From: Actinomycetes bacterium
GTDB lineage: Bacteria > Actinomycetota > CALGFH01
Direction of reading: 5' to 3'
NCBI GenBank assembly: GCA_030152105.1
Contig: JASLIH010000278.1
Coordinates: forward strand, 1-9,077
Length of the DNA: 9,077 bases
The position numbers and the translations under genes were made by a program. Of the stretch, positions 3,349-9,046 are shown piece by piece; position 1 is the first letter of the stretch, and every line of letters begins with the position of its first letter. The notes beneath the pieces were generated by a model. That model was not told the DNA's origin, did not search any database, and saw only the letters and a program-made list of their open reading frames with translations.

Positions 3349-4734
3349 TTGAGTCCAACGTCAAGTACCGTCGCTCCCCCACCCACCGAGCAGCACAGCT
3401 TCGCCGATCTCGGCGCCACCCCGACCACGTTGACCTCGCTGGCCCGGGTCGGGATCGAGCACCCCTTCCCCATCCAGACCCTCTGCCTGCCGCTCGCGCT
3501 GGCCGGGGTCGACCTCATCGGCCAGGCCCGCACCGGCACCGGCAAGACCCTCGCCTTCGGAATCCCGATCGTGCAGGAGGTCGAGCCCGAGCTGCCCGAG
3601 GTGCAGGCGCTGGTCGTCGTGCCCACCCGGGAGCTCTGCCTCCAGGTCGCTGGCGACATCGACACCGCCGGCCGTGACGCCGGCGTGCGCGCGGTCGCGA
3701 TCGTCGGCGGGCGCCCGCTCGGCCCCCAGATCGTCGCCCTCAACGAGGGCGCCCAGGTCGTGGTCGGCACCCCCGGTCGCGTGCTGGACCACATGCGCCA
3801 GGGCTACCTCAAGCTCGACAAGCTTCGCATCCTGGTCGTGGACGAGGCCGACGAGATGCTCGACCTCGGGTTCCTGCCCGACGTGGAGACGATCATCGCC
3901 GCCACCCCCGAGCACCGCCAGACGATGCTGTTCTCGGCCACCATGCCCAAGGCCGTGGTCGGGCTGGCCCGGCGCTACGCCAAGCGGCCGACCTTCGTCC
4001 ACGCCGAGCCCGAGGGCGAGCAGGCCACCGTGCCCGCCACCCGGCAGATGTTCTTCCAGGTCCACCCCCTCAACCGCTTCCAGGTGCTCTGCCGCATCCT
4101 GGACGCCCCCGACCGCGACCGGGTGGCCGTGTTCCGGCGCACCAAGCGCGGGGTCGACCGCACCATCAAGGGCCTGGTCGACGAGGGCTACCGGGCTGGG
4201 GCCCTGCACGGCGACATGCCCCAGGTGGCCCGTGAGAAGGTCATGCGCTCGTTCCGCAAGGGCAAGCTGGACGTGCTGGTCTGCACTGACGTGGCCTCGC
4301 GGGGCCTTGACATCGCCGGCCTGTCGCACGTGATCAACTACGACACCCCCGAGGACGACCGCGCCTACGTCCACCGGATCGGCCGGACCGGCCGGGCCGG
4401 GGCCGCCGGGGTCGCGGTCACCTTCGTGGCCTGGAACGAGCTGGACACGGCCGACCTGATCCGGCGCCGTCTCGAGCTGACCGACGAGCCCGTCCACGAG
4501 GTCTACTCGACCAGCCCACTGCTGAGCGAGCTGTTCGACCTCCCGACCGTCGAGGAGGCGGCCGCCGCCCGGGCCGCGGCCGCGCCCGCAAAGGCCGACA
4601 AGCCCGCCAAGGCAGACAAGCCCGAGGCGCCCGCCGAGGAGGAGCCGGCCCGTCGCCGCTCCCGCTCGGCCGCCCGCCGCCGGCGCCGCCGCCGCATCCC
4701 GGCCGGCGAGCGCCCTTCGGCCGCCACCGGGTAG
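3349..4734 (+). CDS. DEAD-box ATP-dependent RNA helicase, RhlE-like
   Basis: A 461-residue DEAD-box RNA helicase with all core motifs (numbering from the TTG at 3349): Q motif with Phe18 and Gln43, motif I ARTGTGKT (60-67), Ia PTREL (92-96), Ib GTPGR, motif II DEAD (165-168), motif III SAT (196-198), motif V TDVASRGLDI (near 308), motif VI HRIGRTGR (342-349). It unwinds short RNA duplexes using ATP, probably in ribosome assembly or mRNA turnover. After the core comes an Ala/Lys/Pro-rich linker with a twofold AKADKP repeat and a very basic Arg-rich tail (about 430-453), usual for RNA anchoring. Start choice: TTG at 3349 is 4 bases after AGGAGG; the ATG at 3331 would add six residues but has no ribosome binding site and lies in the leader hairpin region. 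It ends in tandem stops TAGTAG. The family is certain; RhlE rather than another DEAD subfamily rests on overall pattern and on the DUF3107 neighbour. Confidence 0.93.
   Translation: MSPTSSTVAPPPTEQHSFADLGATPTTLTSLARVGIEHPFPIQTLCLPLALAGVDLIGQARTGTGKTLAFGIPIVQEVEPELPEVQALVVVPTRELCLQVAGDIDTAGRDAGVRAVAIVGGRPLGPQIVALNEGAQVVVGTPGRVLDHMRQGYLKLDKLRILVVDEADEMLDLGFLPDVETIIAATPEHRQTMLFSATMPKAVVGLARRYAKRPTFVHAEPEGEQATVPATRQMFFQVHPLNRFQVLCRILDAPDRDRVAVFRRTKRGVDRTIKGLVDEGYRAGALHGDMPQVAREKVMRSFRKGKLDVLVCTDVASRGLDIAGLSHVINYDTPEDDRAYVHRIGRTGRAGAAGVAVTFVAWNELDTADLIRRRLELTDEPVHEVYSTSPLLSELFDLPTVEEAAAARAAAAPAKADKPAKADKPEAPAEEEPARRRSRSAARRRRRRRIPAGERPSAATG
4588..4623 (+). repeat. Two tandem 18-bp units encoding AKADKP
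   Basis: Two adjacent 18-base units, 4588-4605 and 4606-4623, differ at two wobble bases and each encode Ala-Lys-Ala-Asp-Lys-Pro in the helicase linker. It looks like a recent small duplication in a low-complexity linker. Confidence 0.7.
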
Positions 4735-4738
4735 TAGG

Positions 4739-4764
4739 GGAATCGTACGACGTCGGGGCGAGTT
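4739..4764 (+). promoter_or_regulatory. SigR-type ECF promoter (GGAAT-N18-GTT) before the sigma gene
   Basis: GGAAT at 4739-4743 (preceded by GG) is followed after exactly 18 bases by GTT at 4762-4764. This equals the consensus known for Streptomyces SigR and closely matches that of mycobacterial SigH. It starts one base after the helicase's tandem stop codons and would begin transcription near 4771-4774, some 40 bases before the sigma start. It points to autoregulation of the sigma/anti-sigma operon. Confidence 0.75.
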
Positions 4765-4814
4765 CACCTCAGCGAGGAGGCGGCACCGCCCGGCGAATGT
4801 GAGTGAGGTCTCCC

Positions 4815-5354
4815 GTGGACCTTGAGGGATTTGAGGCGGCGACCGTTCCGCACATGAACGCGCTGTACGACGCCGCCCTGCGGCTGGCCGGGGACCAGGC
4901 GACCGCCCAGGACCTGACCCAGGAGACCTACCTCCGGGCGTTGCGGTCCTTCGGGACCTTCACGCCGGGCACCAACAGCCGGGCCTGGCTGCTGCGCATC
5001 CAGTACAACCTGTTCTGCACGCAGTACCGGCGCGGGCGGCGGATGCCGCTGGTCTGGCTGGACGAGGGCGAGGCCGACCCGGCGCTCGACCTGCCCAGCG
5101 CCGAGCCCGGGCCCGAGGAGGAGACTGTCCGCGAGCTGGACCGGGAGGCGGTGCGGCGGGCGATCGCCCGCCTGCCAGAGGACTTCCGCACGGCCGTGAC
5201 CCTGGTCGACATCCACGGCCTGTCCTGCGCCGAGGCGGCCACCGTGCTGAGCGTGCCCCGCGGCACCATCCTGTCGCGCCTCCACCGGGCCCGGCGTCGC
5301 CTCGAGGCGATGCTGCTCCCTGAGCTTGGAAGGGTGCAGGCAGATGACCTGTGA
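4815..5354 (+). CDS. ECF sigma factor, SigR/SigH-like
   Basis: A 179-residue ECF sigma factor with only regions 2 and 4. Region 2 (about 6-76) has FEAATVPHMNALYDAALRL, DLTQETYLRALRSF (33-46) and GTNSRAWLLRI (52-62). Region 4 (about 110-165) has LPEDFRTAVTLVDIHGLS (120-137) and the recognition helix PRGTILSRLHRARRRL (148-163). The GTN-AWL-RI and LPE-FR-AV-L-D patterns closely follow Streptomyces SigR, the thiol-oxidative stress sigma factor, and mycobacterial SigH. It should direct RNA polymerase to GGAAT-N18-GTT promoters, three of which lie in this window. Start choice: GTG at 4815 follows TGAGGT by 5 bases and gives the usual N-terminus; GTG at 4803 is possible but has no ribosome binding site at normal distance. 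Its end overlaps the anti-sigma gene by 11 bases, indicating translational coupling. The exact ECF group is an inference. Confidence 0.93.
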   Translation: MDLEGFEAATVPHMNALYDAALRLAGDQATAQDLTQETYLRALRSFGTFTPGTNSRAWLLRIQYNLFCTQYRRGRRMPLVWLDEGEADPALDLPSAEPGPEEETVRELDREAVRRAIARLPEDFRTAVTLVDIHGLSCAEAATVLSVPRGTILSRLHRARRRLEAMLLPELGRVQADDL

Positions 5355-6138
5355 GGACTTCCAGCTCCGGCTCACCGCGTTCAGCCTCGGCGAGCTGGAG
5401 CAGGGCGAGGTGTCGGACGCCCGCGACCACGTCGCCACCTGCGACGACTGCGCCTCCAGGCTGCTGCTGGACCGCCAGCTGACGGCGCTGCTGCGGGCCT
5501 CGGCGGTCCCGGCCCCGCAGGAGACGGTGACGGCCGTCCTGGCCACCGTCCGGGCCGAGGCAGAGGCCGGAGCCGGCCGGCTGGCGCCTTCCCCTCGCCA
5601 GCCGGCCCGGCGCCGCCACTGGCTGGCCCTGGCCGCGGCCATGCTGGCCGCCGCCGCCGTGCTCGCCGTCGCCCTGCTGCTGGTCCCGGCCCCGGACCCG
5701 GGCAGCCCGCTGTCCGCGGCCTGGAGCTCCTATCACTCTCGGGGCGAGGACGGTCTCGGCACCCCGACCCAGGCCCAGGCCGAGCGGCTGTTCGCCGTCC
5801 TGGGGCCGGACTCGCGCACCCCCGACCTGGCCGCCTTCGGCCTCACCAAGGACGGCTGGGAGGCCCGCGACCTGGCCGGGCACCTGGCCGCGGTGGCCGA
5901 GTACCGCGACCCCGACGGCGGGCGGGTCACCCTGATGCGCTGGCGGGGCGACCTGCCCCAGGTGGCCAAGGGCACCGAGGGCGGCCAGCTGGCCGCCTAC
6001 ACCTGGGGCCGGCACACCAGCTACTGGTGGGAGGCCGACGGCCTCGTCTGGTGCCTGGTCGGCACCATCGACCAGGATCGGCTGTACGGCATCGCCGAGC
6101 ACCTGGGTGGGGAATCGTCCCCCGCCCCGGCGGGTTAG
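5344..6138 (+). CDS. Membrane-anchored zinc-binding (ZAS-type) anti-sigma factor, RsrA-like N-terminus
   Basis: A 264-residue protein with the layout of a transmembrane anti-sigma factor. Residues 1-50 form the sigma-binding domain with His29-X3-Cys33-X2-Cys36 (HVATCDDC), the ZAS motif, plus Cys3. The 26-residue step from Cys3 to His29 equals that from Cys11 to His37 in Streptomyces RsrA (whose other ligands are Cys41 and Cys44), so the four ligands needed for redox-sensitive zinc binding appear present. After a linker and a basic RRRHW stretch, residues about 93-114 form one Ala/Leu/Val-rich membrane helix; residues 115-264 would be extracytoplasmic and include a conserved-looking YWWEADGLVWCLVG segment with one Cys. 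It should hold the sigma factor inactive until a signal releases it. The ATG at 5344 follows GGAAGGG by 9 bases and overlaps the sigma stop. RsrA itself is soluble, so the membrane anchor is unusual for that group. Its last bases carry the next gene's promoter. Confidence 0.88.
   Translation: MTCEDFQLRLTAFSLGELEQGEVSDARDHVATCDDCASRLLLDRQLTALLRASAVPAPQETVTAVLATVRAEAEAGAGRLAPSPRQPARRRHWLALAAAMLAAAAVLAVALLLVPAPDPGSPLSAAWSSYHSRGEDGLGTPTQAQAERLFAVLGPDSRTPDLAAFGLTKDGWEARDLAGHLAAVAEYRDPDGGRVTLMRWRGDLPQVAKGTEGGQLAAYTWGRHTSYWWEADGLVWCLVGTIDQDRLYGIAEHLGGESSPAPAG
6111..6136 (+). promoter_or_regulatory. SigR-type ECF promoter (GGAAT-N18-GTT) before the cupredoxin gene
   Basis: GGAAT at 6111-6115 is followed after exactly 18 bases by GTT at 6134-6136. 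The site lies within the last codons of the anti-sigma gene, and the final T of GTT is the first base of its TAG stop. As at the sigma promoter, the -35 reads GGGGAATCGT. Transcription would start near 6143-6146, leaving about 40 bases before the ATG at 6185, with AGGAGGT at 6174-6180. Confidence 0.72.
6121..6134 (+). terminator. GC hairpin at the end of the anti-sigma gene
   Basis: CCCGCC (6121-6126) and GGCGGG (6129-6134) are a perfect inverted repeat; with a realistic 4-base loop the stem is 5 bp, followed by TTAGGG. It could weakly terminate the sigma/anti-sigma transcript. It lies inside the spacer of the next promoter, so part of the GC symmetry may be chance in this sequence. Confidence 0.25.
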
Positions 6139-6184
6139 GGTGCTGAGGCCGCGACCGCGGCCCACCCAAGCTCAGGAGGTCCGA

Positions 6185-6613
6185 ATGCGTCGAAGCATGC
6201 TCGTCGGGGTGGTGCTGGCCGGGGTGCTGGCCCTGGTCGCGGCCGGCTGCGGTGGTGGCAACGACAACGGTGGCGGGAGCGCGGCCGCGACCACCGCCGC
6301 CCCGGAGACCACCGCCGCGTCCGCGACCACCGCCGCCGGCGGGGGCGGCGAGAACGAGATCAAGCTCGCCGCGGCCAACACCGCCTGGGACACCGACAAC
6401 CTCGCCATGACGGCCGGGGCCGAGGTCAAGGTCGAGATCGAAAACGCCGACAGCATCGAGCACAACTTCACCTTCGCCGCGGCCAACGCCAACCAGGACG
6501 TCGAGGGCGGCGAGAACGCCACCGTCACCCTGACCGCGCCGGCGGCCGGCACCTACCCGTTCTTCTGCAAGTACCACCCGGCGGCGATGAAGGGAACAGT
6601 CACGGTCACCTGA
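6185..6613 (+). CDS. Cupredoxin-domain lipoprotein (plastocyanin-like blue copper protein)
   Basis: A 142-residue lipoprotein with a type-1 copper domain. The N-terminus is a lipoprotein signal (RRSMLVGVVLAGVLALVAAGC), with lipidation expected at Cys22. A Thr/Ala/Gly-rich spacer follows (about 23-55), then the cupredoxin barrel (56-142). The predicted copper ligands are His93 (IEHNF), Cys128 and His131 (FFCKYH) and Met135 (PAAMKG), the His-Cys-His-Met set of plastocyanin and amicyanin, with Cys-X2-His-X3-Met spacing. The protein would carry single electrons, or bind copper, at the outer face of the membrane; its partner is unknown and no oxidase or nitrite reductase is nearby. The ATG at 6185 follows AGGAGGT by 4 bases. 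It has its own SigR-type promoter overlapping the end of the anti-sigma gene, so it is probably a target of that sigma factor and may also be reached by read-through. Confidence 0.9.
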   Translation: MRRSMLVGVVLAGVLALVAAGCGGGNDNGGGSAAATTAAPETTAASATTAAGGGGENEIKLAAANTAWDTDNLAMTAGAEVKVEIENADSIEHNFTFAAANANQDVEGGENATVTLTAPAAGTYPFFCKYHPAAMKGTVTVT

Positions 6614-6638
6614 ACACCTCAACGGTTTTCGTGCTCTA

Positions 6639-6664
6639 GGAATTTGGGGTCGGCGCCCTCTGTT
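6639..6664 (+). promoter_or_regulatory. SigR-type ECF promoter (GGAAT-N18-GTT) before lon
   Basis: GGAAT at 6639-6643 is followed after exactly 18 bases by GTT at 6662-6664, in the 87-base gap between the cupredoxin gene and lon. Transcription would start near 6671-6674, about 28 bases before the lon ATG. In Streptomyces coelicolor, lon and other protein quality-control genes belong to the SigR regulon, which supports this assignment. No CIRCE or HAIR heat-shock operator is seen in the gap. Confidence 0.75.

Positions 6665-6700: not shown

Positions 6701-9046
<2,346 letters not shown>

Follow-up and report, generated by a model that had tools for sequence, protein, structure and literature searches.

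The closest described systems to the locus treated here are SigR/RsrA of Streptomyces coelicolor and its SigH/RshA counterparts of mycobacteria and corynebacteria, in which the sigma/anti-sigma pair has a SigR-type promoter of its own. The core of that promoter is published as GGAAT-N18-GTT (PMC2375139), known Streptomyces SigR targets are trxBA, methionine sulfoxide reductases, infC and, in general, chaperones and proteases (PMC5472188), and the zinc ligands of RsrA are Cys11-His37-Cys41-Cys44 (PMC4960319). The window, meaning the whole 9,077-nt stretch of contig JASLIH010000278.1 from an Actinomycetes bacterium, has this core exactly three times on its plus strand, ahead of a sigma/anti-sigma gene pair, of a cupredoxin lipoprotein gene, and of lon (Table 1). 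A first-pass annotation of the window had located the three sites, had recognized the Streptomyces SigR consensus in them, and had assigned all of them to one local sigma factor. The sites and the match to the published core stand. The reading we regard as probable is that two regulons of extracytoplasmic function (ECF) sigma factors are interleaved here, with the window sigma driving itself and the cupredoxin lipoprotein, and SigR driving lon.

A chance origin of the three sites is ruled out by shuffling and by conservation of the core. In 200 dinucleotide shuffles of the window, the mean is 0.03 sites and none reaches 3. The minus strand of the window has neither the exact pattern nor any GGAAT word, and on the plus strand GGAAT occurs otherwise only at 1779, 3559 and 6764, which is the same remaining list that the first-pass annotation had given. 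As our collection lacks a genome for the window itself, 100 relatives, all draft genomes, were scanned instead. Sigma orthologues were found in three of them, G001 (93% identical, at locus L001, the one close relative that the contig scan gave), G002 (91%) and G003 (73%), together 16.6 Mb; among the remaining 97 (278.5 Mb), 40 match the window sigma at E 1e-25 and none is more than 48% identical. In G001, G002 and G003 the three sites are kept in the same order, adjoining the orthologous sigma, cupredoxin and lon genes, and between the window and G003, the most distant of the three, the core is identical at 24/24 positions and the spacers at 17/54. Exact sites number 20 against 4 for a reversed-pattern control in G001, 30 against 2 in G002, and 21 against 10 in G003, where the excess is weak. 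When spacer lengths from 15 to 21 are compared in G001 and G002, only 18 gives a peak (20 against 4-7 for each other length in G001, 30 against 5-14 in G002). Given the conserved core and order, the genome-wide excess, and the peak at 18, the sites are very probably ECF promoter elements of the SigR type under selection. The end of GTT is followed by the sigma start codon after 38 or 50 nt (GTG 4803 or 4815), by the cupredoxin ATG at 6185 after 48 nt, and by the lon ATG at 6701 after 36 nt, all on the same strand. The second site overlaps the final codons of the anti-sigma open reading frame, which ends at 6138.

What divides the sites is their flanks. The first two have GGGGAATCGT in common, as had been noticed in the first pass. 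Of 74 sites, 59 were aligned by gene family, and the 15 without a confident gene name (L036, L116, L122, L124, L130, L133, L135, L140, L145-L149, L153, L162) were left out of the flank scoring. Class A, comprising the sigma and cupredoxin sites, reads GGGAATC-N15-RRGTT[C/A] with two exceptions, and the SigR class, comprising sigR, trxA, trxB, rpmE and msrA, reads GGAAT[A/G/T]...GTT, mostly GTTG. The base after GGAAT is C at 14/14 sites of sigma and four cupredoxin families versus 0/13 SigR-core sites, and the same two counts are found for a pair of purines before GTT. G before GGAAT, and C or A after GTT, are each seen at 13/14 of the sigma/cupredoxin sites; G follows GTT at 10/13 of the SigR-core sites. 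Within the window, the first two sites read GTTC and GTTA and thus lack the SigR flank GTTG, which only the lon site has. Leave-one-family-out scoring over eight flanking positions places 9 of 10 families correctly. The lon sites score as SigR class at 4/4 (the window, at -7.3, and three relatives), and the sites of a small lipoprotein, of a Lipoprotein_15-like gene and at C188-949 score as class A. Among the 126 five/five splits of the 10 families, sigma/cupredoxin versus SigR-core has the largest mean leave-one-out margin (6.8, the next being 4.3), and counts of the class A pattern are 17 in G001-G003 against 0 for its reversed control, and 41 against 7 in the remaining 97 genomes. Since the genomes that describe the flank classes are also those in which they first came to notice, neither that rank nor that enrichment is an independent test.

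The window sigma is an ECF sigma factor, with PF04542 and PF08281 above cut-off and 78 bits versus 42.9 on TIGR02937; its 16 closest database homologues are all 179 aa. It had been taken to resemble SigR. On TIGR02947, the model of actinobacterial SigH/SigR, it scores 118 bits versus a cut-off of 251.55, with the three orthologues at 121-138, and in a tree of 38 rows it groups with these orthologues and three paralogues (on C188, C105 and C133) apart from 31 SigR-side rows, with support 100/100. To the SigR side, G001-G003 contribute 4 rows and other genomes 27, including one (L081) on a long branch. A canonical SigR is encoded separately in G001, on contig C33 (TIGR02947 266.3 versus 251.55); it has its own GGAAT-N18-GTT, and the gene after it is RsrA-like, just below the cut-off of TIGR03988 (58.8 versus 62.5). 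The cut-off, the tree and the separate canonical gene together rule out that the window sigma is SigR itself. A distinct clade, a score below the family cut-off, and a canonical SigR elsewhere instead point to a SigR paralogue, with the window pair as a second system beside SigR/RsrA. On a related matter, G003 apparently has two canonical SigR genes (L166 on C205 and L167 on C53), each followed by a small zinc-motif gene; only the C53 neighbor was scored on the RsrA model, again just below the cut-off at 59.9 versus 62.5.

With a canonical SigR present in G001, one may ask if all three promoters are served by SigR, with the window sigma as a SigR target that has a different target set. ECF cascades are known. 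The published S. coelicolor SigR consensus is GGGAAT(G/C)-N16-(C/G)GTTG, which tolerates C after GGAAT (PMC3489674). Class A flanks, though, are found at none of the 13 SigR-core sites in these genomes, and the pattern is sparse in the 97 relatives, 27 of which have a SigR-side sigma, one being that on the long branch. Autoregulation is moreover the usual arrangement for sigma/anti-sigma operons, and we consider such a cascade rather unlikely.

The lon promoter can be followed beyond the three closest genomes, which makes an independent test. The scan covered 30 of 64 lon matches, those with loci fetched; the 34 left out include a partial 78% match in G027 without the gene start. GGAA[T/C]-N17-19-GTT is present within 300 nt upstream of lon in 19/30, where shuffles expect 0.52; the site is absent from eleven, and in four more-distant loci it reads GGAAC. 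For lon genes at least 66% identical to that of the window, GGAAT[A/G]-N17-19-GTT is present within the same distance in 15/15, so that 15 related genomes have a SigR-type promoter ahead of lon. Apart from G001-G003 these are twelve genomes, in which the closest match to the window sigma has 39-47% identity, except in G070, where there is none at E 1e-25; the relatives being drafts, absence of the window sigma may in part reflect missing sequence. In the 12 outside promoters, the sixth base is C in 0/12 and two purines precede GTT in 0/12. The lon promoter thus occurs where the window sigma has no close orthologue, and it is probably older than its link with that sigma. This bears on the first-pass proposal of one local regulon, with the window sigma driving itself, the cupredoxin and lon. 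In its favor are the identical core and spacing at three neighboring genes, an arrangement that three relatives have preserved as well, and its sigma and cupredoxin half remains the best and likely reading; the lon half conflicts with SigR-class flanks at 4/4 sites and with a promoter retained in 12 genomes without a close sigma orthologue, so that as a whole we judge the single regulon unlikely.

Several considerations weigh against the division into a class A regulon and a SigR regulon. In the family scoring, the misplaced family is msrA, which falls on the class A side (+0.8). The sites within one family are orthologues and not independent draws. Sites of MFS (2 sites), cysteine-synthase-like, substrate-binding-protein, DUF6069-like and NlpC-like genes also score as class A, and several of these are off any envelope or copper theme (L047, L134, L035 and L037 are the MFS transporter, cysteine-synthase-like and substrate-binding-protein sites). 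Among the 12 outside lon promoters, 5 continue after GTT with G and 7 with T, and 7 have G ahead of GGAAT, so those two positions are not general marks of SigR promoters. Related sigma factors often cross-recognize promoters. With no genome for the window in our collection, a SigR in its organism is assumed from the relatives. The published S. coelicolor consensus overlaps class A in part, since C as sixth base and G before GTT are allowed (PMC3489674), and the sigR of one relative has GGGAATC...CCGTTG; the flank split is therefore at best local to this lineage. The sixth base by itself was dropped as a discriminator since that consensus allows C there, and it was weakened further when the sigR genes of 27 relatives outside G001-G003 were examined as extra SigR promoters, only 2/27 having GGAAT-N17-19-GTT, one of these with C as sixth base. 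The SigR-class pattern across the 100 relatives was not informative, being present in 82 with the reversed control as high in many.

Paralogous ECF sigma factors are encoded in G001 on C188 (L168) and in G002 on C105 (L169), each immediately followed by a further cupredoxin that has a class A site. It could be supposed from this that a paralogue of the C188 type drives the class A promoters in place of the window sigma, or that both share them; since the promoter of the window sigma itself belongs to class A, in the window as in three relatives, we find this very improbable. The 900 nt downstream of the paralogous sigma gene showed no zinc-motif anti-sigma, and further downstream at C188 there is a CHRD-domain protein.

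The anti-sigma factor of the window has the anti-sigma fold with HxxxCxxC of a ZAS domain, and C-x25-H-x3-C-x2-C is kept in 41/41 aligned anti-sigma sequences, with the ligands spaced as in RsrA. It differs from the soluble single-domain RsrA in having a hydrophobic helix and an outer domain, and it scores 24.5 versus 62.5 on TIGR03988. The structure model puts the helix at 90-111, with low confidence there. The protein is thus predicted to unite a CHCC zinc site of RsrA spacing with a membrane helix and an RseB/MucB-like outer domain. Compared with SigL/RslA of Mycobacterium tuberculosis, which is of a different sigma group, the fourth zinc ligand is Cys where RslA has His25 (PMC2877774). RsiW of Bacillus subtilis is likewise a membrane-bound zinc-motif anti-sigma of an envelope-stress ECF factor, and many database homologues of the window protein are labeled RsiW, the zinc of which is thought to be structural (PMC7406223). 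The window sigma, however, scores 80 versus a cut-off of 209 on the SigW model. As for RseA/RseB and MucA/MucB, the likeness is in the predicted fold of the outer domain, that of the C-terminal domain of RseB/MucB. RseB/MucB is a separate periplasmic protein, whereas in the window such a domain would be fused to the anti-sigma factor. What is unusual here is this architecture and the closeness of two sister regulons on one core; the principle itself is ordinary. Among the papers listed on ECF sigma factors with cupredoxin/plastocyanin, copper and anti-sigma factors, we recognized no title or abstract as describing this system.

From these features we infer which sigma factor binds which site, what the signal and the release step are, and what the cupredoxin does. 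At rest, the CHCC zinc domain would keep the window sigma at the membrane. Release might follow when the zinc cysteines are oxidized in the cell interior, or when the outer RseB-like domain senses a change. The freed sigma would act at promoter 1, for the operon that encodes it and the anti-sigma factor, and at promoter 2, for the cupredoxin gene, thereby amplifying itself and loading the cell surface with a copper-binding protein, and the canonical SigR, encoded elsewhere, would use promoter 3 before lon. A broader and more tentative idea, which we hold as possible but doubtful, is that a duplicated SigR-like system has turned into an envelope copper/redox arm of the thiol-stress response. 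The anti-sigma factor might then be a switch that responds to two inputs, one through an RsrA-type thiol/zinc sensor inside the cell and one through an RseB-like envelope sensor outside it, the two being joined by a single membrane helix, and the regulon (itself, several cupredoxins, and small lipoproteins) might be separated from that of SigR only by the flanks of a shared core, so that lon stays with SigR. If the two-regulon reading is true, nature would here offer an example of sister sigma factors that share one promoter core within a single genome, and how paralogous ECF sigma factors avoid cross-talk would become directly testable via a few flanking bases. It also suggests a route for rewiring a cytoplasmic thiol sensor into a membrane protein.

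The genes behind the core in G001-G003, with names mostly read off translations and not from family searches, include canonical sigR, trxA, trxB, rpmE, lon, and an ABC transporter gene. To these are added a UBP-type zinc finger gene in G001 and G002, msrA in G002, infC in G003, several cupredoxins, and the small lipoprotein (G001, G002) and Lipoprotein_15-like gene (G003) mentioned above. Both lon and rpmE are S. coelicolor SigR targets. The thioredoxin, msr, ribosome and protease genes that carry the core do so in relatives where canonical SigR is also present. The expectation that a genome-wide scan would hit thioredoxin, mycothiol and protease genes was in these three relatives borne out for thioredoxin (trxA, trxB) and for lon; no mycothiol gene was recognized behind the core in G001-G003.

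Table 1. Coordinates of the promoters, genes and protein segments in the 9,077-nt window.
Feature	Coordinates	Strand	Remarks
Promoter 1	4739..4764	+	Class A, GGGGAATC...GAGTTC; ahead of the sigma/anti-sigma operon; orthologous in G001, G002, G003
ECF sigma factor, 179 aa	4815..5354	+	Alternative GTG start 4803; Pfam Sigma70_r2 and r4_2
Anti-sigma factor, 264 aa	5344..6138	+	ZAS domain, one membrane helix, outer domain
Zinc-site stretch of anti-sigma, Cys3-x25-His29-x3-Cys33-x2-Cys36	5350..5451	+	
Predicted transmembrane helix of anti-sigma, residues 92-114	5617..5685	+	Hydropathy maximum 2.82
Outer domain of anti-sigma, residues 132-255	5737..6108	+	Predicted fold like the C-terminal domain of RseB/MucB
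Promoter 2	6111..6136	+	Class A, GGGGAATC...GGGTTA; within the 3' end of the anti-sigma gene, upstream of cupredoxin
Cupredoxin lipoprotein, 142 aa	6185..6613	+	EHNF ... CKYHPAAM type-1 copper ligand motifs; AAGC lipobox-like motif
Promoter 3	6639..6664	+	SigR class, AGGAATT...CTGTTGA; ahead of lon
lon, ATP-dependent protease, 781 aa	6701..9046	+	TIGR00763 836 bits versus 608.05

The window cupredoxin belongs to Pfam Cupredoxin_1 (PF13473, 61.9 bits versus 27) and, with its His, Cys, His and Met ligand motifs, is a type-1 copper cupredoxin. Of the 14 Cupredoxin_1 matches in each of G001 and G002, class A sites precede 3, which are the three with the best scores; in G003, such a site is found at only the best of 23 matches (C289). 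Also in G003, a cupredoxin-like gene on C90, named from its C-x2-H-x2-M motif and not among the Cupredoxin_1 matches listed, has a class A site.

On the other side of promoter 1, a DEAD-box RNA helicase gene (3352-4734) has its stop codon 4 nt ahead of the promoter. An Rfam scan of the window returned no matches at gathering scores, and a tRNA/tmRNA scan of 8 loci with a site and no clear open reading frame returned no genes. A conserved class A site without a convincing gene behind it is found in G001 (L042, C188:949-974) and in G002 (L114, C105:5036-5061), where a small RNA or a short protein is possible. In G001, a SigR-class site (L052, C423:1758-1783) is about 680 nt upstream of a 16S rRNA gene, which raises the possibility of a thiol-stress input to the rRNA operon; a similar site in G002 (L127, C668:410-435) is close to the contig end, with no rRNA visible there.

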